From Natrinema caseinilyticum (GTDB taxonomy: Archaea; Halobacteriota; Halobacteria; Halobacteriales; Natrialbaceae): 64,000 nt of DNA. Made by a program: the position numbers and the translations under genes. Location: the NCBI RefSeq assembly GCF_024227435.1, contig NZ_CP100445.1, positions 2,353,369-2,417,368 of the forward strand. Reading direction: 5' to 3'. Position 1 is the stretch's first letter, and each line of letters begins with the position of its first letter. Below are positions 869-64,000 of the stretch, in pieces. A model generated the notes under the pieces. The model had not been told where the DNA came from, made no database searches, and saw only the letters and a list, made by a program, of their open reading frames with translations.

Positions 869-1627
869 ATGAACGGCATTCGAGACTCAGCGGTGATCGT
901 AACTGGAGCGAGTACCGGTATTGGCCAAGCGGCGGCACTGCGGTTCGCCGAAGAGGGCGCGAACGTCGTCGTGGCGGACGTCGACGTTCAGGACGGCGAA
1001 CAGACCGTCGAGGACATCCAGGATGCGGGAGGCGAGGCGACGTTCGTCGAGACGGACGTGAGTGAGCGAACGGACGTCGAGGCGATGGTCGAGGAAACCG
1101 TCGAGACGTACGGCGGGCTCGATTTCGCGGTCAACAACGCCGGCGTCGAGGGCGACACGCACCCGACGGCCGACCAGCCGATAGACAACTGGGAGCGCGT
1201 CATCGACATCAACCTCAAGGGTGTGTTCCTCGGGATCCGCGCTGAACTGCCCGCGATGCTCGAGGACGGTGGCGGCGCGATCGTCAACATCTCGTCGACC
1301 GCTGGCGAGGTCGGCTTTCGGGGAGGTAGTCCGTACGTCGCGAGCAAGCACGGCGTCATCGGGCTGACCAAGACGGCCGCCCTCGAATACGGCAACCAGG
1401 ACGTCCGGGTCAACGCCGTCTGTCCCGGGGTAATCCAGACACAGATGGTCGACCGGGCGGCCGAACGCGATCCCGAGATGATAGAGCAGATCAGCGCAGC
1501 GACGCCGCTGGGCCGCATCGGCCAGCCCGAAGAAATCGGCGACGCTGTGGTCTGGCTCTGTTCGGACGACGCCTCGTTCGTGACCGGCGAAGCGTTGGTC
1601 ATCGACGGCGGCTACGTGAGTCAGTAG
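869..1627 (+). CDS. Short-chain dehydrogenase/reductase (SDR), glucose 1-dehydrogenase-like
   Basis: A 252-aa classical SDR with a complete Rossmann fold. The cofactor motif TGASTGIG is at residues ~13-20 and an NNAG motif follows at ~90. The catalytic Ser lies in NISSTAG, and the Tyr/Lys pair in YVASK at ~155. The Asp at the end of the second strand (VVADVDV) suggests a preference for NAD(H). The C-terminus has the usual SDR ending (GEALVIDGGY). Its length is typical. It would oxidise or reduce an alcohol/ketone in the cytoplasm; the substrate cannot be told. The ATG at 869 fits the TATA box just upstream. Confidence 0.92.
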   Translation: MNGIRDSAVIVTGASTGIGQAAALRFAEEGANVVVADVDVQDGEQTVEDIQDAGGEATFVETDVSERTDVEAMVEETVETYGGLDFAVNNAGVEGDTHPTADQPIDNWERVIDINLKGVFLGIRAELPAMLEDGGGAIVNISSTAGEVGFRGGSPYVASKHGVIGLTKTAALEYGNQDVRVNAVCPGVIQTQMVDRAAERDPEMIEQISAATPLGRIGQPEEIGDAVVWLCSDDASFVTGEALVIDGGYVSQ

Positions 1628-10294: not shown

Positions 10295-11860
10295 TCACGA
10301 GAATTTCTGAACGGTCACGTCGAGCGTGTCCAGATCCACGATCGGCGCGAAGCCGGCGTCGGGATCGATGTTGACGCTCTTCTGAAAGTCGGTCTGGGCC
10401 TGCCAGCAACCGGAGTTGATCGCGAGTACATTGTGATATTTTCCGAACCCGAGCTTGTGTACGTGGCCCGTATGGAAGATGTCGGGCACCTCGTCGATGA
10501 TGAGGTAATCTTTCTCTTCGGGCGCGAGTCGGGTGTGACCGCCGAACTGTGGGGCGACGTGGCGCTTCTTGAGGAGGTGGTACATCGCTTTGTGCGGATC
10601 GTCGTAGCTGGCCTTTTCCTCGGGGAGTTCCGCGATCACCTCGTCCAGGGAAACGCCGTGATACATCAACACGGAGACGCCCTCAAGCGTTATCGTCGAC
10701 GGGTTGCTCACGATCCGAGGATCGTGTGCGGACATGATCTCCCGCAACTCCTCGTCGAATCCGGGCTGTGGCTCGGCGAGGCGGACCGCATCGTGGTTCC
10801 CCGGGATCATGACGATCTCGATGTCGCCGGGTACTTTCTTCAGGTGCTCACTGAACGCTTCGTACTGTTCGTAAATGTCGACGATGTCGAGTTCCTCGTC
10901 CTGATTCGGATACACACCGACGCCTTCGACCATGTCACCCCCGAGCAACATGTACTCCACGTGTTGGGCCTGGTCGGTGTGCAGCCAGTCGGTGAACGCG
11001 TTCCACGCGTCCGCCATAAATTCCTGGCTGCCGACGTGGACGTCGCTGATCAGCGCCGCCTGAACGTGGCGATCAGCGGTCGACGGCTCGTGCGTACGGG
11101 GCACGTCCGGGAAGTACATCGAATCGACGAACGCGATTCCCGAATCGTCAGCGAGCGTCCCTTCCATCGCGAGCACCTCGTCGCAGAGTAATTCGTCGAC
11201 GAGGTCGACGTACTCCCGGTCTTTCATCACCAGCCAGGGGAACGTTCCGGTCGCGTCCTCGAGTTCGATCAGCCAGTGACCGCTCGCAGTCGATCGGATG
11301 TCGTTGACCAGACCCACCATCGCAGCCTCACTGCCGCCGGGCATCGCCTGAATCGCCGACGCCGGCCGATGGTTGACCCGGGATCGAAGCGTCGCTCCCA
11401 GTCGATCGAGCCTGTCCCGGAAAACCGAGACGAAATCGCTATACTCGCCCGTTCCCGTGCTTTGGCCGGTCATATCGCCGACGATCTCGACCGACCGTTT
11501 CGACGGATCGGCGGAGCGGCCGGCGGCGGAAGACCCCTCCGTTTCAACTGGAGATCGACCGGTCGATGCTCGTCCCTCCGGGGTAGTTCCAGTCGAAACG
11601 GAGGGGGTTCGGTCTCCCGCCGGAGGCGGGTTTTCCGAACCGGCCGCATCGGTCCGATCAGCGGGGTCGGTGGTCGAGAGGGCCGCCTCGACGTGCGCAC
11701 TCCGAACGACGAGAGCGTCCTCCGGCACTTCCTCGAGAACGCGTTCGAGCGCGGCAGTCGAATTCGCGGCCGCTGCGAGTTTCGTGACGGCCTCACGCTC
11801 TGCGTTGTACCCGCGGGACGTGAGTTCGCTGACGATTCGAGCGGAGGCCTCGAGTGGCAC
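10295..11860 (-). CDS. polD1: DNA polymerase D small subunit (DP1)
   Basis: A 521-aa exonuclease subunit of the replicative archaeal polymerase D. A short helical N-terminus (VPLEASARIVSELTSRGYN) leads into a disordered linker (~75-150). An OB-fold follows, then a calcineurin-type phosphoesterase with all metal motifs: ISDVHVGS, GGDMVEG, PGNHDAV, MYHGVS and HTGHVH. The GTG at 11860 is preferred to an upstream TTG at 11887 because conserved DP1 sequence begins there. The linker contains two oppositely oriented ORB-like sequences at DNA level (11533, 11587). The large subunit is not in the window. Confidence 0.94.
   Translation of the reverse strand: MPLEASARIVSELTSRGYNAEREAVTKLAAAANSTAALERVLEEVPEDALVVRSAHVEAALSTTDPADRTDAAGSENPPPAGDRTPSVSTGTTPEGRASTGRSPVETEGSSAAGRSADPSKRSVEIVGDMTGQSTGTGEYSDFVSVFRDRLDRLGATLRSRVNHRPASAIQAMPGGSEAAMVGLVNDIRSTASGHWLIELEDATGTFPWLVMKDREYVDLVDELLCDEVLAMEGTLADDSGIAFVDSMYFPDVPRTHEPSTADRHVQAALISDVHVGSQEFMADAWNAFTDWLHTDQAQHVEYMLLGGDMVEGVGVYPNQDEELDIVDIYEQYEAFSEHLKKVPGDIEIVMIPGNHDAVRLAEPQPGFDEELREIMSAHDPRIVSNPSTITLEGVSVLMYHGVSLDEVIAELPEEKASYDDPHKAMYHLLKKRHVAPQFGGHTRLAPEEKDYLIIDEVPDIFHTGHVHKLGFGKYHNVLAINSGCWQAQTDFQKSVNIDPDAGFAPIVDLDTLDVTVQKFS
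11533..11609. repeat. Inverted pair of ORB-like elements inside polD1
   Basis: On the plus strand ACCCCTCCGTTTCAACTGGA (11533) and, ~35 bp on, TTCCAGTCGAAACGGAGGGG (11587) form near-perfect inverted repeats with their G-rich ends facing outward. Each resembles the archaeal ORB core TTCCAGTGGAAACGAAGGGG. Both lie in the sequence for the variable linker of DP1. Confidence 0.75.
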
Positions 11861-12030
11861 ACGCCACGCATTCGCGACGGACGGCAAAAGGGTAGCGGAT
11901 CACTCTCACGTGGTGCGCGTGGTACCGAACTCCCGTTTCGGGGGACGGAGACCGTTCTGTCTCTTTCCCGTCCGGAAAAACGGAGACCGTTCAGTCTGTG
12001 CGGGGGTCCAATCTGTCCGAACGGGACCCC

Positions 12031-14072: not shown

Positions 14073-14427
14073 ATCGACTCGCACAGTCGGTCGTCTCTCA
14101 GACCGGAACGCGTTTCGGCCAATCGAGAGGTGTCGGCGTATTCCGTGCGACATTTCGTTCGATCTGGCCGCTTCGTCTCCGTTCCACCACGTTCGAACGC
14201 GTGACCACAGCCTCCACTCTCTGGGTTCCGTGGGCCACAACGGGAGGTTTCTGTCGGGGCGATCTGCAGTTGAAACGAAGGGGGTAGGGTCGGGCCAGTC
14301 GAATTCCGGTGTGCGGTTACGATACCGGAGACGACACATCGCGGAACGCTGTCCGTCTCACGCGTTGGAATCGAAAATCGAACGGAGAGCCCGATAGAAA
14401 GGCGAGTTTCGGCCAGTACGTTTTCGC
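14073..14427. other. Convergent intergenic region with ORB-like element
   Basis: No gene is seen between the signal peptidase and orc1 ends. At 14263-14293 (plus strand) an ORB-like sequence (TGCAGTTGAAACGAAGGGGG) occurs, followed by a G-rich tail. It may form the outer edge of the origin region. Confidence 0.65.
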
Positions 14428-16257
14428 TTAGTTTTCGAATCGGGCCTGGATGAACGGCTGGACGTCGTCGATATCGCTCAGTCGGGAGTCGCTCAACAGC
14501 ACCGCCTCCGTCTCTTCGAGTGGAACCGAGAGACTGATCTCCTTCGTACGACCGTACCGGCCCTTCGAGACCACGATCGCGTTGACGATGCCGAGCATGT
14601 CGAGTTCGCTGATGAGATCCGTCACGCGACGCTGCGTCAGGACGTCCGCGTCGATCTCCTCACAGAGTCGTTTGTAAATGTTGAACACTTCGCCGGTGTT
14701 GATGCTGTGAACGCCGTTTTTCTCGAGCAGAATAATCGCGAAGAGGACGAGTTTACTCTGCGTGGGCAGCGTACGGACGACTTCGACCACGCGATCGAGT
14801 TCGATCTTGTCCTGGGCCTGTCGGACGTGTTCTTCCACGATCGTTTCGGCCTGGGACCGCTCGGCCAGCTCGCCCGCCGTGCGAAGCAGATCCAGCGCAC
14901 GTCTCGCGTCACCGTGTTCTTGTGCCGCAAACGCCGCACACAACGGGATCACGTCCTCGGAGAGCGCTCCGTCCTTGAACGCGACCTCCGAGCGGTGTTC
15001 CAAAATATCTCGTAGCTGATTCGCGTCGTACGGCGGGAAGACGATCTCCTCTTCACCCAGCGAGGATTTGACCCGCGGATCGAGAAAGTCCGTGAACTTC
15101 AAATCGTTACTGATCCCGATGATCGACACTCGCGAGTTCTCGAGTTCGGAATTCATCCGCGAGAGATTGTACAGCGTATCGTCGCCGCTTTTCTCGACGA
15201 GTTTGTCGATTTCGTCGAGCATGATGACGACGACCCGCTCGTCGTAATCGACGGCGTCGAAAAAGACGCTGTACACACGGTCGGTCGGCCACCCCGTCAT
15301 CGGAACTTCCTCGAAGGACTCCTTGTCGTCCTCGAGTTCTGCTATTCGGTCGTCGACATCGTCACGAGTATCGAACGGGGTGGACTCGAGGGGGTGTGTC
15401 GCCGGGGTCGTCGCGTGATCGGTGGCTGCGGAGTCGGGGAACGAAGAATCCGTCGTTTTGGAATCCGAGGTTGCGGAATCGGACGGTGTGGAATCGAGGT
15501 CGTCGCCGCTACCGATCGTGCGATCGGATCGGTCGACGGACGACGCAGCGTGTTCGTCTGGAGACCCCTCCATTTCAGGTGGAGAACCGGACGACTCCGT
15601 CTCCTTTTTGCCTCCAGTCGAAGCGGTGGAATGTGGTTCACGTTCCCCGTCGGAGACGAACTCGAACGGATCCGACACCGTCCGGTCGCCCGAATCGGGA
15701 CGACCGTCAGTAGCGTCCCCATCGGAATTGGCCTCGTACTCGGCTACGTCATCCAGCAGCGACTCGAGGTCTGCTATTCGATCGTCGATTCGTTTCTCGT
15801 TCTTTTCGATGAATTTGTTCGCGAGCTGAGCGAGGACGCGGTACTGTGTATCGGTGACCTCGCAGTTGATGTATTCGACGTCACACGGGACGCTGTACTT
15901 CTGTGAAGTGCTCTCGAGTTCTTTGCTGACGAATTTGGCGCTCGCAGTCTTTCCGGTCCCGGTTTTTCCGTAGATGAGAATGTTCGATGGGGTTTCGCCG
16001 CGGAGCGCAGCGACGAGGATCGTCGCCATTTTGTTGATTTGATCGCTCCGATGGGGTAATTCGTGCGGTGTATAGGACGGGCGAAGGACTTCCTTGTTCC
16101 CGAAAATCGGTTCGCCACTGAGCAAATCGTCGAACAGGCCCTGGTTCGACTCCTCTTCGGTGCCGATATCTGGGTTCTCCAAGTTCGACGAGAACACGTT
16201 CGTTCCGTCGATCTCGGTCTCGTCTGATCCTGCGATTTCTGAGTCGTCGTCTGACAT
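14428..16257 (-). CDS. orc1: Orc1/Cdc6 replication initiator
   Basis: A 609-aa AAA+ initiator that binds ORBs and recruits the MCM helicase. Walker A is YGKTGTGKTASAKF (~96-109) and Walker B is VVIMLDEIDKL (~343-353). Sensor-1-like SIIGISNDLKF and a C-terminal winged helix (TQSKLVLFAIILLEKNGV onward) follow. A Ser/Asp-rich insert at ~176-300 interrupts the AAA+ domain and explains the excess over the usual ~400 aa. At DNA level the insert carries a degenerate inverted ORB pair. An ORB-like element also lies 14-36 bp upstream of the ATG, suggesting self-regulation. It faces oriC. Confidence 0.96.
   Translation of the reverse strand: MSDDDSEIAGSDETEIDGTNVFSSNLENPDIGTEEESNQGLFDDLLSGEPIFGNKEVLRPSYTPHELPHRSDQINKMATILVAALRGETPSNILIYGKTGTGKTASAKFVSKELESTSQKYSVPCDVEYINCEVTDTQYRVLAQLANKFIEKNEKRIDDRIADLESLLDDVAEYEANSDGDATDGRPDSGDRTVSDPFEFVSDGEREPHSTASTGGKKETESSGSPPEMEGSPDEHAASSVDRSDRTIGSGDDLDSTPSDSATSDSKTTDSSFPDSAATDHATTPATHPLESTPFDTRDDVDDRIAELEDDKESFEEVPMTGWPTDRVYSVFFDAVDYDERVVVIMLDEIDKLVEKSGDDTLYNLSRMNSELENSRVSIIGISNDLKFTDFLDPRVKSSLGEEEIVFPPYDANQLRDILEHRSEVAFKDGALSEDVIPLCAAFAAQEHGDARRALDLLRTAGELAERSQAETIVEEHVRQAQDKIELDRVVEVVRTLPTQSKLVLFAIILLEKNGVHSINTGEVFNIYKRLCEEIDADVLTQRRVTDLISELDMLGIVNAIVVSKGRYGRTKEISLSVPLEETEAVLLSDSRLSDIDDVQPFIQARFEN
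15564..15630. repeat. ORB-like inverted pair inside the orc1 linker
   Basis: ACCCCTCCATTTCAGGTGGA (15564, minus orientation) is followed by CTCCAGTCGAAGCGGTGGA (15612, plus orientation, degenerate), with G-rich ends outward as in the polD1 pair. It lies within the segment coding for the Ser/Asp-rich Orc1 insert. Confidence 0.6.
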
Positions 16258-16270
16258 TCGTCGTATGCGA

Positions 16271-16293
16271 ACCCCCTTATTTCGAGTGGAAAC
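16271..16293 (-). promoter_or_regulatory. ORB-like element in the orc1 promoter
   Basis: The minus-strand reading is TTTCCACTCGAAATAAGGGG plus further G, an ORB variant ending 14 bp before the orc1 ATG. It overlaps where the TATA/BRE or transcription start should be, so Orc1 binding would compete with transcription (inference). Confidence 0.65.
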
Positions 16294-17164
16294 CCGAACC
16301 AGTAGCGAGGAATTTCACAGTGTGATGGCCTCCTCCAGAGAATCCACCGATTCATACGTCCGATCCGGGTCCAGTTGATGCAAACGAAACAGAGGAAAAG
16401 CATGCTAATAAATTCTTCCCTTCCTCTTGGCCCGTGCGTGAGAATAAATAGAGACGTACCTGTAACAGAAATTTCCGTGGAGACCGACGTGAGGGGCCAC
16501 AGCGGAAGAACGTGCAGAACGAGAGGACGTTGCCAAACTCTTGTCCTGCAGTGGAGTCGACGACAAAATCGAGTTCTCACTCGAGACGAAGAGCCGAGTG
16601 GAACCGATCACTTTCGGTTCGAAATCCAGTTCGACGTCGCTTTGCTGGTCGATGTGACCCGGGAGACGATCGTCGAACAGGGCGAGTGGCACGCGGTGAG
16701 TGTTACTAACTATATCGGTGATTGCCGACCGGTACCGCTACTCGAGTCGGGTCAAAAACAGTTCGGTTCAAATGCGTCGGACGTTTCGGTTCAGATACGT
16801 TGAATTTCTCACGACGGATCGAATCCTTGATTCGATAAAGGGCAGTGGCTCGACCAGCACATTGCCACCGAAAGAGAGGCCGTTCGATCCGAGTGACGCA
16901 CCGGGATTAGTGTGCATCAGTTGATATATTTTCGACTCCGTGAGTTGGATTCAGCCTGTCGAGTTACGTTCGTTCACCCCTCGACAGGATTGGTCCCGGA
17001 AGATGCCCTATCGATCATTCCTCGGAGGGGGTGGCTGAGGTGAATTCATCGATTGTGTCCGTCTAACAGTTGCAGGGGTGGACAATGAAAGAGTGTTCAG
17101 TGAAAGAGCGGTGAGCGAAGCCACAGGTAGGAGCGGAGGTGTTGGTTAACGAGTTGGTTAACCT

Positions 17165-17195
17165 CTACCCCCCCACCCCTTCGTTTCAGGTGGAA
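17165..17195 (-). repeat. oriC ORB, left copy
   Basis: Minus-strand reading: TTCCACCTGAAACGAAGGGG, followed by TGGGGGGG. It matches the ORB core with the extended G-string known from haloarchaeal origins. It is inverted relative to the copy at 17508, with G-strings outward. Confidence 0.85.
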
Positions 17196-17277
17196 CGGAT
17201 GGAAGGGGAGGGGTGGGTGACGGAGAATTTAGGACGGGAAGTTTTATTAGGTAGGGTGCAAAACAGTATCCGCAGAA

Positions 17278-17384
17278 CTAGCAAAGTTGAACTAGTTGCT
17301 AGGGTTCATCTTTGTGTTACTAGTCTAAACTAGAACGCACGTTCTGTACAGCTAGAGTTACTAGACACACGATCAAATTACTAG
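17278..17384. repeat. CTAG-rich AT core between the ORBs (candidate unwinding element)
   Basis: CTAG occurs at 17278, 17292, 17299, 17320, 17330, 17352, 17361 and 17381, mostly as A-CTAG. The surrounding DNA is clearly AT-richer than the rest of the window. Position between inverted ORBs fits a duplex-unwinding element. Confidence 0.7.
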
Positions 17385-17507
17385 AGCGGCCTTCTCCCTC
17401 GAGTTCACGCGGTAAATCACTTCTCTCTCCCCTGCAGCGGAAGTAACGGGGGACTGACCCGCTACTACATCCGATCGGCTCGTTCAATCCGTCTCCGGTC
17501 CTGGCGA

Positions 17508-17541
17508 TCTCCACCTGAAACGAAGGGGTGGGGGGGCTGTC
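17508..17541 (+). repeat. oriC ORB, right copy
   Basis: TCTCCACCTGAAACGAAGGG, then GTGGGGGGG, on the plus strand. It is almost identical to the left copy in inverted orientation, ~310 bp away. Confidence 0.85.
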
Positions 17542-17864
17542 TCCGAGATCACCTTCTGGTATTATGTGTCATTGTGTGCTAGTATATCTCCCTTCTTCAT
17601 TCAATGATAATTGTTATCAATACGATTCACACGCGATAAGACTCATGACCTCACGACGTTGTCAACCATCACGACAATGTTAGGTGTCATGAAGTTGTCA
17701 AGTGACGCGATGCGTATCACGATGTATCGGTACGGATTACACAGGACATTCCTGACCGAGACTCACTCCAACTCGTCGAACTGTCACTTCGTCTGACGTA
17801 GTCTTAAGTGAGTTCAGTTTGTAGTGAGCGCAGATGCACCCCGCGGTGCTGGAGGCCCCCACAG

Positions 17865-18503
17865 ATGGGACTGTTCACAGAACTCAAAGATAGTATCTCT
17901 CGGGTCACGGATCGCCTGTTCTCGGAACAGGAACCGAAACGTATCGGTATCTACGGTCCACCGAACGCCGGCAAAACGACGCTTGCAAACCGAATCGCAC
18001 GCGACTGGACTGGCGATGCGATCGGTGCGGAAAGTCACGTCCCTCACGAAACGCGACGCGCACGACGGAAAGAGAACGTCGAGATCGAACGGGATGGCAA
18101 GACGGTGACCATCGACATCGTCGATACACCCGGTGTGACGACGAAGGTCGATTACGAGGAGTTCACCGACGAGATGGACGAAGAGGACGCTATTCGTCGG
18201 TCCCGGGAAGCCACCGAGGGCGTCGCCGAGGCGATGCACTGGCTTCGAGAAGACGTCGACGGCGTTATCTATGTTCTAGATAGTGCTGAAGACCCGATCA
18301 CACAGGTCAACACGATGCTGATCGGCATCATCGAATCCCGTGATCTTCCAGTTCTCATCTTCGCGAACAAAACCGATCTCGAGGAATCGAGCGTCAAGCG
18401 GATCGAAGACGCATTTCCGCAGCACACGACCATTCCGCTCTCCGCGAAGGAGGGCAACAACATGGAGGAAGTGTACGGCAAGATCGCGGAGTACTTCGGG
18501 TGA
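17865..18503 (+). CDS. oapA: Era-like GTPase, oriC-associated protein OapA
   Basis: A 212-aa Era-like GTPase. It has G1 YGPPNAGKTTLANRIARDW (~26-44), G3 DIVDTPGVTTK and G4 ANKTDLEE. Its conserved position next to the orc1 origin gave the family its name in haloarchaea. It would bind and hydrolyse GTP; the exact role at the origin is not settled. The ATG at 17865 has a GGAGG Shine-Dalgarno at 17851-17855; the longer frame from 17808 adds an unconserved segment. It is first gene of a tight operon with oapB and oapC. Confidence 0.93.
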   Translation: MGLFTELKDSISRVTDRLFSEQEPKRIGIYGPPNAGKTTLANRIARDWTGDAIGAESHVPHETRRARRKENVEIERDGKTVTIDIVDTPGVTTKVDYEEFTDEMDEEDAIRRSREATEGVAEAMHWLREDVDGVIYVLDSAEDPITQVNTMLIGIIESRDLPVLIFANKTDLEESSVKRIEDAFPQHTTIPLSAKEGNNMEEVYGKIAEYFG

Positions 18504-18508
18504 TAACG

Positions 18509-18910
18509 ATGCCGAAAGCTACCAACGCCGACGACTCTGACCCATCTGACGGCGTACAGATCGACCTGATCAGCGGGGAGCGGATGGACGGTATGGCAAC
18601 GATGGAGAAGATCAGGATGATCTTGGACGGCGTCCACGACGGTAACATCGTCGTCCTCGAGGAGGGATTGACTCCCGACGAGGAGAGTCGACTCATCGAG
18701 GTGACGATGGCCGAGATCAGTCCCGACGAATTCAACGGGATCGAAATCGAGACCTATCCGAAATCCGAGACTCGCGACTCATCGCTGCTCGGCCGCATTA
18801 TGGGGACCGATCAGACGGAAACGAAACTGACGGTGATCGGCCCGGCAAACCAGATAGAGACGCTCCACAAGGACGAAACGCTCATCAGCGCGCTCGTGTC
18901 CCGCAACTAA
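18509..18910 (+). CDS. oapB: DUF2073 protein, oriC-associated protein OapB
   Basis: A 133-aa protein of the DUF2073 family: QIDLISGERMDGMATMEKI, then NIVVLEEGLTPDEESRLIE and a LTVIGPANQIETLHKDE strand near the end. Function unknown; it is always found beside the Era-like GTPase. The ATG follows five bases after the oapA stop; a GTG overlapping that stop (18500) is an alternative start. It overlaps oapC by one base (TAATG). Confidence 0.9.
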   Translation: MPKATNADDSDPSDGVQIDLISGERMDGMATMEKIRMILDGVHDGNIVVLEEGLTPDEESRLIEVTMAEISPDEFNGIEIETYPKSETRDSSLLGRIMGTDQTETKLTVIGPANQIETLHKDETLISALVSRN

Positions 18911-20046
18911 TGCCTCATCAGTGTACGAACTGCGGCCGGACGTTCGCCGACGGCTCCAAGGAAATGCTGTCGGGCTGTCCCGATTGCGGCGGCAACAAAT
19001 TTCAGTTCGCGCCGACTGCCGCGGCCGCAGCTGAATCGTTCGACGATGGCGGTGACTCGCCGTCCGCCTCGTCGGCCCGCGGGGGCGGATCGACGACCGT
19101 CGACTCGTCTGATTCGACAGATCCAGCTGACCCGTCCACGTCCGCCGAGTCGTCGAGTGTCACCACGCGAGCCGCTAAGACCGTTCGCGATTGGGTGTCT
19201 ACCGACTCGTCGGGCAGCCAGAACGACGAGTACACTGACTCACCCGAGCACGCACACCGGAACAGATCCGACTCTGCCGGACGCCAGCAACCGGATCGGT
19301 CGCACGCAACCTCGCGGGCGGACAACCCGTGGCCCTCGAGTGCGAAGCCGGAGACCGACGAATCGAGTTCACCGACGACCGACGAGTTTGCCGAGTGGCC
19401 CGAGTCGGCTCGACGGCCCGAAGATCGGTCCGGCGCTCAGAACGAACCCGAGACGACAGGTGACGGGCGCGAAGAGTTCGAGACGACAGGTGACGGGCGC
19501 GAAGAGTTCGAGACGACAGGTGACGGGCGCGAAGAGTTCGAGACGACAGGTGACGGGCGCAAACGACGAGTCGAACGGGACGCCGATCAGCAGGATCGGT
19601 CGTCGGCAGCTCCAGCCGAACCGCGGACGAAAGACGAAAACGCAGCGCAAGCCGACGCCCGCAGCGAGGTGTTTTCAACGAACGACCTGCCCTCCTACTC
19701 GTCGGGTCCGGATCGATCCGCCTCGGAACGAAGTGCCGCCGGCAGTGCTCGGGCGGATTCACGTGCCACCACCGAAGGGACCGCTACCGGGGCCGACGAC
19801 GCTCAGCCACCCGAACACGGTCGCGTCGTCAGCGAACCGAGCGGCGAGCGCCCCTCTATCGAGGAACTTCGCGCAGAACTCAACGAACAGTTCGAAAGCA
19901 TCAAGATCGTCAGACCGGGCCAGTACGAGCTCAATTTGATGGAACTCTACAATCGCGACGAGTACATTATCTCACTTCAGGAAGATGGCCGATACGTGAT
20001 CGACGTCCCGGATTCCTGGCGCGCTGGCGACGACGGTGAGGACTGA
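18910..20046 (+). CDS. oapC: Zinc-ribbon protein OapC with repeat-bearing linker
   Basis: A 378-aa protein with two ordered ends. The N-terminal zinc ribbon has CTNC and CPDC pairs (residues ~5-8 and ~22-25). The C-terminal ~60 residues are conserved (RPSIEELRAELNEQFESIKI to YVIDVPDSW). Between them are ~270 disordered, Ser/Asp/Glu-rich residues. These include three exact copies of the decapeptide ETTGDGREEF and a partial fourth, encoded by 30-bp tandem repeats. It is third gene of the oap operon; a role in origin function or DNA binding is inferred from the family context. Confidence 0.88.
   Translation: MPHQCTNCGRTFADGSKEMLSGCPDCGGNKFQFAPTAAAAAESFDDGGDSPSASSARGGGSTTVDSSDSTDPADPSTSAESSSVTTRAAKTVRDWVSTDSSGSQNDEYTDSPEHAHRNRSDSAGRQQPDRSHATSRADNPWPSSAKPETDESSSPTTDEFAEWPESARRPEDRSGAQNEPETTGDGREEFETTGDGREEFETTGDGREEFETTGDGRKRRVERDADQQDRSSAAPAEPRTKDENAAQADARSEVFSTNDLPSYSSGPDRSASERSAAGSARADSRATTEGTATGADDAQPPEHGRVVSEPSGERPSIEELRAELNEQFESIKIVRPGQYELNLMELYNRDEYIISLQEDGRYVIDVPDSWRAGDDGED
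19450..19560 (+). repeat. 30-bp in-frame tandem repeat in oapC
   Basis: Exact 30-bp units begin at 19450, 19480 and 19510, with a 21-bp partial unit at 19540. They encode ETTGDGREEF. Identity at DNA level indicates recent expansion by slippage. Confidence 0.95.
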
Positions 20047-48138: not shown

Positions 48139-48211
48139 AGTCCATTAGGGTAGTGGCCAATCCTTCGAGCTTCTGGGGCTCGAGACGCTGGTTCGAATCC
48201 AGCATGGACTA
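48139..48211 (+). tRNA. tRNA-Gln (anticodon CTG)
   Basis: A 73-nt cloverleaf. Acceptor arms AGTCCAT and ATGGACT pair over 7 bp. D arm GGGT...ATCC. Anticodon stem CGAGC/GCTCG holds loop TTCTGGG with anticodon CTG, reading CAG. T arm GCTGG-TTCGAAT-CCAGC. No CCA is encoded and no intron is seen. Confidence 0.93.
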
Positions 48212-48257
48212 CTTCTCTGCCGTTTCGACTCGAGCCAATAACCGACTCGGTCACCCG

Positions 48258-48283
48258 ATTTCCAGTCGAAACGAGGGGGTCGG
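48258..48283 (+). repeat. Isolated ORB-like element
   Basis: TTCCAGTCGAAACGAGGGGG at 48260-48279, flanked by AT and TCGG, is a good ORB match ~50 bp downstream of tRNA-Gln and ~57 bp upstream of the rhodanese ATG, far from oriC. No paired copy was seen. Confidence 0.6.
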
Positions 48284-61885: not shown

Positions 61886-64000
61886 CTAACCCGAATAGTC
61901 GCTTCCGATGACTTCTCGGATCCGCTCTGCGGTCACCGTCCCGACGCCGTCTGCCTCCTGTAACTCGTCTTCGGTCGCGATCATCACGCCCTCGACCGTG
62001 CCGAACGCTTCGAGCAGCGACCTGGCCGTGACGGGGCCTATTTCGGCGATGGAAGCGACGACGTACTCCTGTTGTTCGGACAGAGTCTTGCTGCCCTTCT
62101 CGCCGTGGACCGACACCTCGCGGTCGGCGGTCGCCTGTTCGCGCCCGGCGATCACCGCGAGCAGTTCGGTCGTGTCGGCTTCGCTCTCGGTCCGCAGGAC
62201 GCTCGCACCGAAGTCGACGGCGAGACTCGAGAGCGCTCCCCGAACCGCGTTCGGGTGGACGTCCCGCTGCTCGTAGAGCCCGTCGCCCTCGACGACGACG
62301 ATCGGGCGCGAGTAGTGACGCGCCATCGCGCCGACCTGCTCGAAGACCGACCGGTCACCACCGACCAGCGAGTCCACGAAATCGGCGACGGACTTGCGCT
62401 CGACGACTACCCGATCCGACAGGACGTAGTCACCGACGTCGAGCGTCTCGAGGCGCACCTCGATTTCGTCGCGCCGCGAGAGGTCGCGGGCGATGTTCGC
62501 GTCCATCTCGCGCTGGTCGGCCACGACCTCGACGGTCTCGCCCTCGGCGTGTGGCTCGTGGGTCTCGACGGACTCCTCGTCCGGTCCCTCCGCGGCGTCG
62601 GCCCGGTCCGCGAATTCCTGCAGCCCTGGCTGTTCTCGACCCCCTTCGTTTCCACTGGAAGACCCGCCGACTGCATCGGGGTCGGAGCGCTCTTCGACGG
62701 CTTCGGACCCGGGGGGTGCGTCGTCGCCTCCCGTTGCCGTGCGTTCCTCGTCGCCCTCGAAATCCGAAAGCGACTGCTGGGAGTCGTCGAGTTCGTTCTC
62801 GAGGGCCGTGGCCATTCCCTTCAGTTCGCGTAGCTCCGATTCCATCTCCTTTTCGCGGCGCCTCGAGATCCAGAAATAGGCTTCGTCGCGGGTGTCCTCG
62901 GCCATGAGGACGACGACCCGTCCCTCGGACTGGCGACCGGTTCGGCCCTTCCGCTGGATCGAACGGATGGCGGTCGGAACGGGTTCGTAGAAGAGAACCA
63001 GGTCGACTTCCGGCACGTCGAGTCCTTCCTCCGCGACTGACGTCGAGATCAACACTTCGAATTCGCCCGCCCGGAACTCGTCTAAGACCTCCTGTTGTTG
63101 CGTCTGAGTCATTCCGTCCGACCCCTCGCGGTCGCCCTGCCCGACGAACCGCTTCGCGTCGAAGCTCCCCCCGAGAAAGTCCGTCAGGGCCTCGGCCGTA
63201 TCGCGGGACTCGGTGAAAACGATGACGCGGTCGCCACCCTCGAGTCCCAGGGTTTCGGCGAGCAACATACGGGTCTTGCGGTACTTGGGGTGGATCTCGT
63301 CGAACCGTTCGGCCTTCCGCATCGCCTCGCGAACGCGCGGATCCGACACCATTCGCTGGCTCGCCTTCGACGCTCCGGACGAGCGAGCCTGGTTTCGCTG
63401 GCGCTCGAAGTACCGACGGAGCGCCTCGACGCTCTGGGTTTCGACCAGCGTGACGGCCTGTCGGAGCTTCATCACCTCCGCGTGGACCGACATCCCCTCG
63501 AATCCCTCCGACTGATCGTTGTCGATCAACTGCTGCAGTTCGGCTCGCATCCGGTTCAGGTCCTTCTGTGACTGATCGGGCTGCGTCGAGCGCGCGATCC
63601 CGAGTTCCTTTAACTTCTCGAGGCGATCCGTGATGACCTCGTTCAGCGTGTCCCGTATCTCGAGGACCTCGTCCGGGAGATCGATCCGCTCCCACTCGAC
63701 GTCGGTGTCGTGGGTGAACTCGTCGACGTCGGCGTCTTCCTCGGTCATCACCTCGACTTCTCGGAGGCTCAGGTTCTCACAGACGTCGAGGATCGCTTCC
63801 TCGTCGCCGCCGGGCGACGCCGACATGCCGGTCACGAGCGGATCGTGGGCGTCGGCGTGGTACCGCTCTGCGATATAGTTGTACGCGTAGTCGCCGGTCG
63901 CGCGGTGGCACTCGTCGAAGGTGACGTGGGTGACGTCGGCGAGCGAGATGCGCGACCCGACGAGATCGTTTTCGATCACCTGCGGCGTCGCCATCACGAC
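61886..64000 (-). CDS. hef: Hef helicase/nuclease, C-terminal part (partial)
   Basis: The gene continues beyond the window end; the N-terminal ~120 residues including Walker A are missing. Seen here: ATPQVIENDL, the DECH box HVTFDECHRATG, and helicase motif VI SIQRKGRTGRQSEGR. An acidic linker follows, then an ERCC4/XPF nuclease domain with VVERKSVADFVDSL (ERKxxxD) and a C-terminal HhH (IAEIGPVTARSLLEAFG). Hef processes stalled forks and flaps. The linker-coding DNA contains a full ORB-like sequence at 62639. Confidence 0.94.
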   Translation of the reverse strand, partial: VVMATPQVIENDLVGSRISLADVTHVTFDECHRATGDYAYNYIAERYHADAHDPLVTGMSASPGGDEEAILDVCENLSLREVEVMTEEDADVDEFTHDTDVEWERIDLPDEVLEIRDTLNEVITDRLEKLKELGIARSTQPDQSQKDLNRMRAELQQLIDNDQSEGFEGMSVHAEVMKLRQAVTLVETQSVEALRRYFERQRNQARSSGASKASQRMVSDPRVREAMRKAERFDEIHPKYRKTRMLLAETLGLEGGDRVIVFTESRDTAEALTDFLGGSFDAKRFVGQGDREGSDGMTQTQQQEVLDEFRAGEFEVLISTSVAEEGLDVPEVDLVLFYEPVPTAIRSIQRKGRTGRQSEGRVVVLMAEDTRDEAYFWISRRREKEMESELRELKGMATALENELDDSQQSLSDFEGDEERTATGGDDAPPGSEAVEERSDPDAVGGSSSGNEGGREQPGLQEFADRADAAEGPDEESVETHEPHAEGETVEVVADQREMDANIARDLSRRDEIEVRLETLDVGDYVLSDRVVVERKSVADFVDSLVGGDRSVFEQVGAMARHYSRPIVVVEGDGLYEQRDVHPNAVRGALSSLAVDFGASVLRTESEADTTELLAVIAGREQATADREVSVHGEKGSKTLSEQQEYVVASIAEIGPVTARSLLEAFGTVEGVMIATEDELQEADGVGTVTAERIREVIGSDYSG
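62639..62662 (-). repeat. Full ORB-like element inside hef
   Basis: Minus-strand reading TTCCAGTGGAAACGAAGGGG, plus GT, is the best single match to the archaeal ORB consensus in the window. It lies in the hef linker (encoding SSSGNEGGR), ~45 kb from oriC. Confidence 0.75.

Follow-up and report, generated by a model that had tools for sequence, protein, structure and literature searches.

We studied a 64-kb window of the Natrinema caseinilyticum chromosome (the window being the whole stretch of DNA analysed, whose own coordinates are used unless a contig or locus is named), which contains a putative replication origin and several copies of the origin recognition box (ORB) lying outside that origin, here called satellites. 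The origin occupies the gene-free gap at 16258-17864, with the initiator gene orc1 on one side and the oapABC operon on the other. Matches to NF001625, PF09846 and PF09845 confirmed these flanks, which a preliminary description of the locus had given as orc1/cdc6 and an Era-like/DUF2073/Zn-ribbon operon. Two mechanically called open reading frames in the gap, of 142 and 95 aa, were rejected as genes, showing no protein conservation along their length. Coordinates of all the features are collected in Table 1.

The origin between orc1 and oapABC

A repeat search showed that the two ORB arms of the gap, TCCACCTGAAACGAAGGGGTGGGGGGG, are 27 nt each, 100% complementary and separated by 315 nt. They correspond to the inverted pair with G runs noticed earlier, whose positions 17165 and 17508 were a few bases off. 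When the 21-nt ORB core was searched with up to three mismatches over the whole 4.77-Mb genome, only both origin ORBs and one match inside orc1 were recovered (reversed control, 0). A scan with OapA gave 80 loci, 72 of them with orc1 upstream in the matching arrangement, and these are the relatives compared here: the ORB pair was present with identical polarity and G-strings in 72/72. The exact core occurred class-wide, in 362/391 haloarchaeal genomes (reversed control, 0). Because of the synteny, ORB orientation and G-strings of the relatives and the wide occurrence of the ORB, region 16258-17864 is almost certainly the oriC1-type origin of a Natrinema-type haloarchaeal chromosome, as had been proposed; in itself it is a further member of the known oriC1 kind.

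The GC content per 100 bp was 44-48% in the inner 200 bp between the ORBs, compared with 50-58% around this stretch and 63.6% in the whole window. An AT-richer core, also part of the preliminary description and expected of oriC1 as its unwinding region, is thus present, although it differs only modestly from its surroundings. The locus shares with the oriC1 of Haloarcula hispanica, and with haloarchaeal oriC1 in general, the orc1 linkage, the inverted ORBs with extended G-strings, the AT-richer core and a G-rich element inside the ORB; it differs by the phased TTACTAGA array between the ORBs (see below). In the H. hispanica oriC1, autonomous replication depends on the two ORBs and on each of their G-strings; the G-rich inverted repeat that they enclose acts as an enhancer that is not essential, and half versions of this repeat have been reported from other genera (PMC3936714). 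The G-rich element of the window resembles one half of the enhancer repeat, with no evident right half in the window.

The CTAG array and other elements between the ORBs

Besides the G-rich element, the block AAACAGTATCCGCA keeps a nearly constant spacing from the left ORB, about 72-75 nt in the majority of Natrialbaceae and in several other genera, and it occurs in Halorussus and Haladaptatus loci too. The array that follows holds eight CTAG sites within 107 bp, out of 29 in the window. Over 73 loci the CTAG density was 17.6 per kb between the ORBs versus 0.34 per kb in the rest of the loci, and the sole other CTAG cluster in a 1.96-Mb sample of the chromosome was upstream of a second orc gene. 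Among 46 Natrialbaceae TTACTAGA kept a single orientation (TTACTAG 119 times, 7 reversed), and the commonest spacings of neighbouring CTAGs were 10, 20-22 or 31 bp. Phasing in the window, of roughly 10.3 bp, had a p of 0.02; lower values were obtained for many relatives, non-independent through their shared ancestry, and some relatives were not significant. Helical phasing was not found in the Natronococcus arrays, and at two Natronococcus origins (L063 and L067) the core between the ORBs looked different, with unphased CTAGs. The distance between the ORBs is itself suggestive of helical phasing: seven within-genus steps in Natrialbaceae fell near whole turns (p = 0.00015, post hoc and with a jitter null of our own), and the effect was weak in other families (p = 0.07).

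Blow et al. (2016, PMC4752239) have already described clusters of CTAG at haloarchaeal orc1/cdc6 origins and linked them with an orphan methylase; orphan CTAG methyltransferases are common in the haloarchaeal class. The locus shares with those clusters a high CTAG density upstream of orc1, and here the sites are resolved, from sequence alone, as an oriented array phased at ~10.3 bp between the ORBs; no report of the orientation or helical phasing of a CTAG array at these origins was found in the open-access literature. Methylation of CTAG as m4C has been reported in Natrinema pallidum (PMC12160562). The chromosome studied here encodes an N6/N4 DNA methylase (PF01555; C1:325,661-326,722, L018 1426-2487) that is a candidate for the CTAG methylase, although CTAG specificity could not be assigned to it.

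ORB satellites outside the origin

A strict ORB pattern, TCCASYBGAAAYN{2,4}GGGG, was run over 13 whole Natrinema genomes. Each genome had few matches, most of them close to oriC1, and the controls had none. The chromosome studied here had eight, all between 2,364,902 and 2,416,027 (within 51 kb): the origin ORB pair and six satellites, namely a pair inside the DP1 gene and single sites inside orc1, in the orc1 leader, next to tRNA-Gln and inside hef. The satellites match the archaeal ORB consensus CTTCCAGTGGAAACGAAAGGGGT, including its GAAAC and GGGG core (PMC4153887). Satellite ORBs in coding genes appear to be undescribed as far as the open-access literature shows; nothing earlier on ORBs within DP1 or orc1 was found there (subscription papers not covered). 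For the hef site, a similar match in another Natrinema genome may be its counterpart. Upstream of orc1, a short stretch at about 16380-16430, GCATGCTAATAAAT, aligns in several relatives and is possibly the orc1 promoter, in which case the ORB-like site at 16272-16290 would fall in the orc1 leader.

The sites in DP1, in orc1 and next to tRNA-Gln were conserved across genomes. For DP1 we compared 21 loci, the window and 20 others chosen for having a pair; in this chosen set the pair lay inside DP1 in 21/21, with a gap of 38 bp in 18/21, 35 bp in the window and 50 bp in two, and the intervening sequence varied. The DP1 pair pattern occurred in 150/391 genomes of several families (control, 0). In the 21 loci examined, the tRNA-Gln site was positioned ~48 nt past the tRNA, mostly with a degenerate inverted partner; its strict pattern was present in 78/391 genomes. 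A reading of this +31 kb site as an element at fixed distance from oriC1 was rejected, since the site follows tRNA-Gln.

Table 1 Features of the origin region, the satellite sites and the second orc-linked locus. Positions are those of the window, except where L006 is given.
Feature	Position	Strand	Evidence or remark
DP1, DNA polymerase D small subunit gene holding the satellite pair	10295-11887	minus	NF003116, 983 bits
DP1 satellite pair, left arm	11534-11552	minus	
DP1 satellite pair, right arm	11588-11606	plus	
Weaker ORB-like site 3' of orc1	14263-14285	plus	
orc1 (Orc1/Cdc6 initiator)	14428-16257	minus	NF001625, 654 bits; low-complexity insert in AAA+ domain
Satellite ORB inside orc1 reading frame	15563-15583	minus	
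Satellite ORB-like site, orc1 leader/promoter (TCCACTCGAAATAAGGGGG)	16272-16290	minus	
Left ORB, extended G-string, outward	17168-17194	minus	perfect inverted repeat; kept in 72/72 relatives
G-rich element just inside left ORB	17202-17217	plus	sequence; block conserved in alignment
Conserved block AAACAGTATCCGCA	17261-17274	plus	alignment
Array of 8 CTAG (TTACTAGA-type), helically phased	17278-17384	plus	
Degenerate internal ORB-like site CTGCAGCGGAAGTAACGGGGG	17432-17452	plus	weakly conserved GAAA..GGG block in alignment
Right ORB, extended G-string, outward	17510-17536	plus	perfect inverted repeat; kept in 72/72 relatives
oapA, Era-like GTPase	17865-18503	plus	
oapB	18515-18910	plus	PF09846
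oapC	18910-20046	plus	PF09845
tRNA-Gln(CTG)	48139-48212		
tRNA-Gln satellite, degenerate inverted partner arm	48222-48234	minus	
tRNA-Gln satellite ORB, 48 nt past tRNA-Gln(CTG)	48261-48279	plus	
Canonical ORB-like site in the Hef nuclease gene hef (61886-63997 minus)	62641-62659	minus	
Second candidate, run of 11-bp tandem TAGTGTAAGTG-like units	L006 567-665		
Second candidate, perfect 24-nt inverted repeat	L006 939-962 / 1085-1108		

The codons GTT, GGA, CCA, GAA and GGG of the DP1 arms did not vary among the 20 loci for which the DP1 frame was read (20 of 21, L202 being left out), a count inflated by shared ancestry and covering two families; their frequencies elsewhere in DP1 were 7, 10, 13, 26 and 23%, respectively. 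At the orc1-internal site GAA and GGG were present in 35/35 loci and CCA in 31/35, with variable residues between them, a count inflated likewise by ancestry and also by the choice of these 35 loci for ORB similarity. Both sites thus fix rare codons, which points to constraint at the DNA level; the non-coding copies next to tRNA-Gln and in the orc1 leader agree with this. Satellites and origin ORBs differed in the sequence after the core: the extended G-string was found in 138/139 origin ORBs versus 1/61 sites of DP1 and tRNA-Gln. The DP1 and tRNA-Gln satellites therefore lack, with that one exception, the element that is essential for activity as an autonomously replicating sequence (ARS) in H. 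hispanica. This tally left out the sites within orc1 and in its leader, which in the window, the one place where they were read, were also without it.

Possible roles of the satellites and rank of the origin

We propose that the region is an oriC1 accompanied by non-firing, Orc1-binding satellites that titrate or regulate Orc1, an account to which we give a probability of about 0.65. Orc1 from the adjacent gene would bind the two inverted origin ORBs, with their G-strings facing outward; the region between them would melt and MCM would be loaded, judging from the family. The ORB cores in DP1, orc1, the orc1 leader and next to tRNA-Gln would bind the same Orc1 without firing, since the G-string extension required for ARS activity in H. 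hispanica is the part that they lack, and they would act as a buffer for free Orc1, as feedback elements for the expression of orc1 and DP1, or as both. Binding of Orc1 to the satellites is probable; for a titration or regulatory role we would put the odds at slightly below even. More tentative still is an extended version for haloarchaea, in which the dispersed sites within the coding sequences of orc1 and DP1 and next to tRNA-Gln, unable to fire without the G-string, regulate oriC1 by titration and feedback; in parallel, melting or sequestration of the origin would be made methylation-sensitive by the phased CTAG array.

There are precedents for initiator sites off the origin. In oriC2D of H. 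hispanica, ORBs outside the origin were proposed to titrate the initiator Cdc6E (PMC3936714); the shared feature is the ORBs outside the origin, but that system has 11 ORBs in one intergenic region by oriC2, whereas here they are few, linked to oriC1 and scattered in genes and by a tRNA. The datA/DARS sites and dnaA autoregulation of Escherichia coli are alike in having initiator sites away from the origin and a possible dosage or feedback control, a comparison of working only; the initiator belongs to a different family and the candidate sites here lie inside genes. The solitary ORBs of Methanomassiliicoccales are also single motifs away from orc1, and in the accessible part of that report (PMC4153887) neither a conserved placement nor a constraint on reading frames is described for them. 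How over-initiation is prevented at archaeal orc1-linked origins is largely an open question, and rare conserved initiator motifs within the initiator and replicative polymerase genes offer specific testable sites. The G-string contrast would provide a sequence rule for telling firing from non-firing ORBs, and the phased TTACTAGA array gives exact positions at which a role of CTAG methylation, as proposed for haloarchaeal origins, could be examined.

The satellites could instead be operators through which Orc1, as a transcription factor, coordinates replication genes (its targets being orc1, DP1 and the gene that follows tRNA-Gln) and plays no titration role. One site does lie in the orc1 leader, the sites travel with their genes when these move, and dnaA autoregulation (named in PMC3936714) is a bacterial parallel; yet both DP1 arms and the site within orc1 are deep in reading frames and not at promoters, and nothing evident links the gene after tRNA-Gln to replication, so that we consider this explanation unlikely. 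It is more improbable that another protein sharing the ORB core, such as a nucleoid or segregation factor, binds the satellites as a parS-type cluster around the origin. Such a cluster would fit the location of most sites in one stretch around the origin, and a Sulfolobus nucleoid protein is known to act at origins (PMC12141716), but the motif is the ORB consensus itself, with its GAAAC and GGGG core.

Selection on the proteins would explain the coding sites alone, as peptide motifs (SPVETEG in DP1, SPPEMEG in orc1), and a similar peptide is indeed found in inserts of both proteins. The codon evidence disfavours this reading, rare synonymous codons being fixed though the residues between them vary; moreover, the other DP1 arm, as the reverse complement, encodes a different peptide, PSVSTG, and the tRNA-Gln and leader sites are non-coding. 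We regard it as very improbable, and slightly less credit still can be given to an ordinary oriC1 whose satellites are chance matches or relics. ORB-like sequences are short and a few isolated matches exist (C3:38049 and hef), but reversed controls gave 0 in nearly every genome, and spacing and codons are conserved.

Several observations weigh against the account of non-firing, Orc1-binding satellites. The strict DP1 pair is missing from most Haloferacaceae, matches to the tRNA-Gln site came only from Natrialbaceae and a single genus of Haloferacaceae, and the orc1-internal site, present in 35/46 Natrialbaceae loci, is weak or missing in 11/46. The DP1 pair stays with DP1 in some genomes where this gene is 74-156 kb from oriC1, and tRNA-Gln sites are found up to ~108 kb from it. 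Since the satellites follow genes and not a fixed distance from oriC1, their clustering near the origin is in part gene order. A handful of single sites would be weak competitors in a polyploid cell. Finally, GC skew gives no support to a dominant origin at this place.

The last point also concerns the earlier suggestion that this is the main origin of the chromosome, with an inflection of GC skew as one of its checks. In skew curves computed on a 50% sample of the chromosome, the extremes of the cumulative GC skew were at 1.65 and 3.52 Mb, and near the window, at 2.37 Mb, the curve showed no more than a minor local dip; without a global extremum there, GC skew was rejected as proof of a main origin. 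The cumulative AT skew had its maximum near the window (2.32 Mb), in a noisy curve. With this result and a second orc-linked candidate at 0.20 Mb, the rank of main origin is unproven.

A perfect inverted ORB-like repeat also accompanies the second orc gene (C1:203,925), and the region upstream of this gene on the same contig (L006 457-1287) is a second origin candidate, which also carries a duplicated 19-mer containing CTAG. Apart from the origins, tandem 30-bp repeats (GAGACGACAGGTGACGGGCGCGAAGAGTTC) lie at 19470-19560, in the low-complexity linker of oapC.
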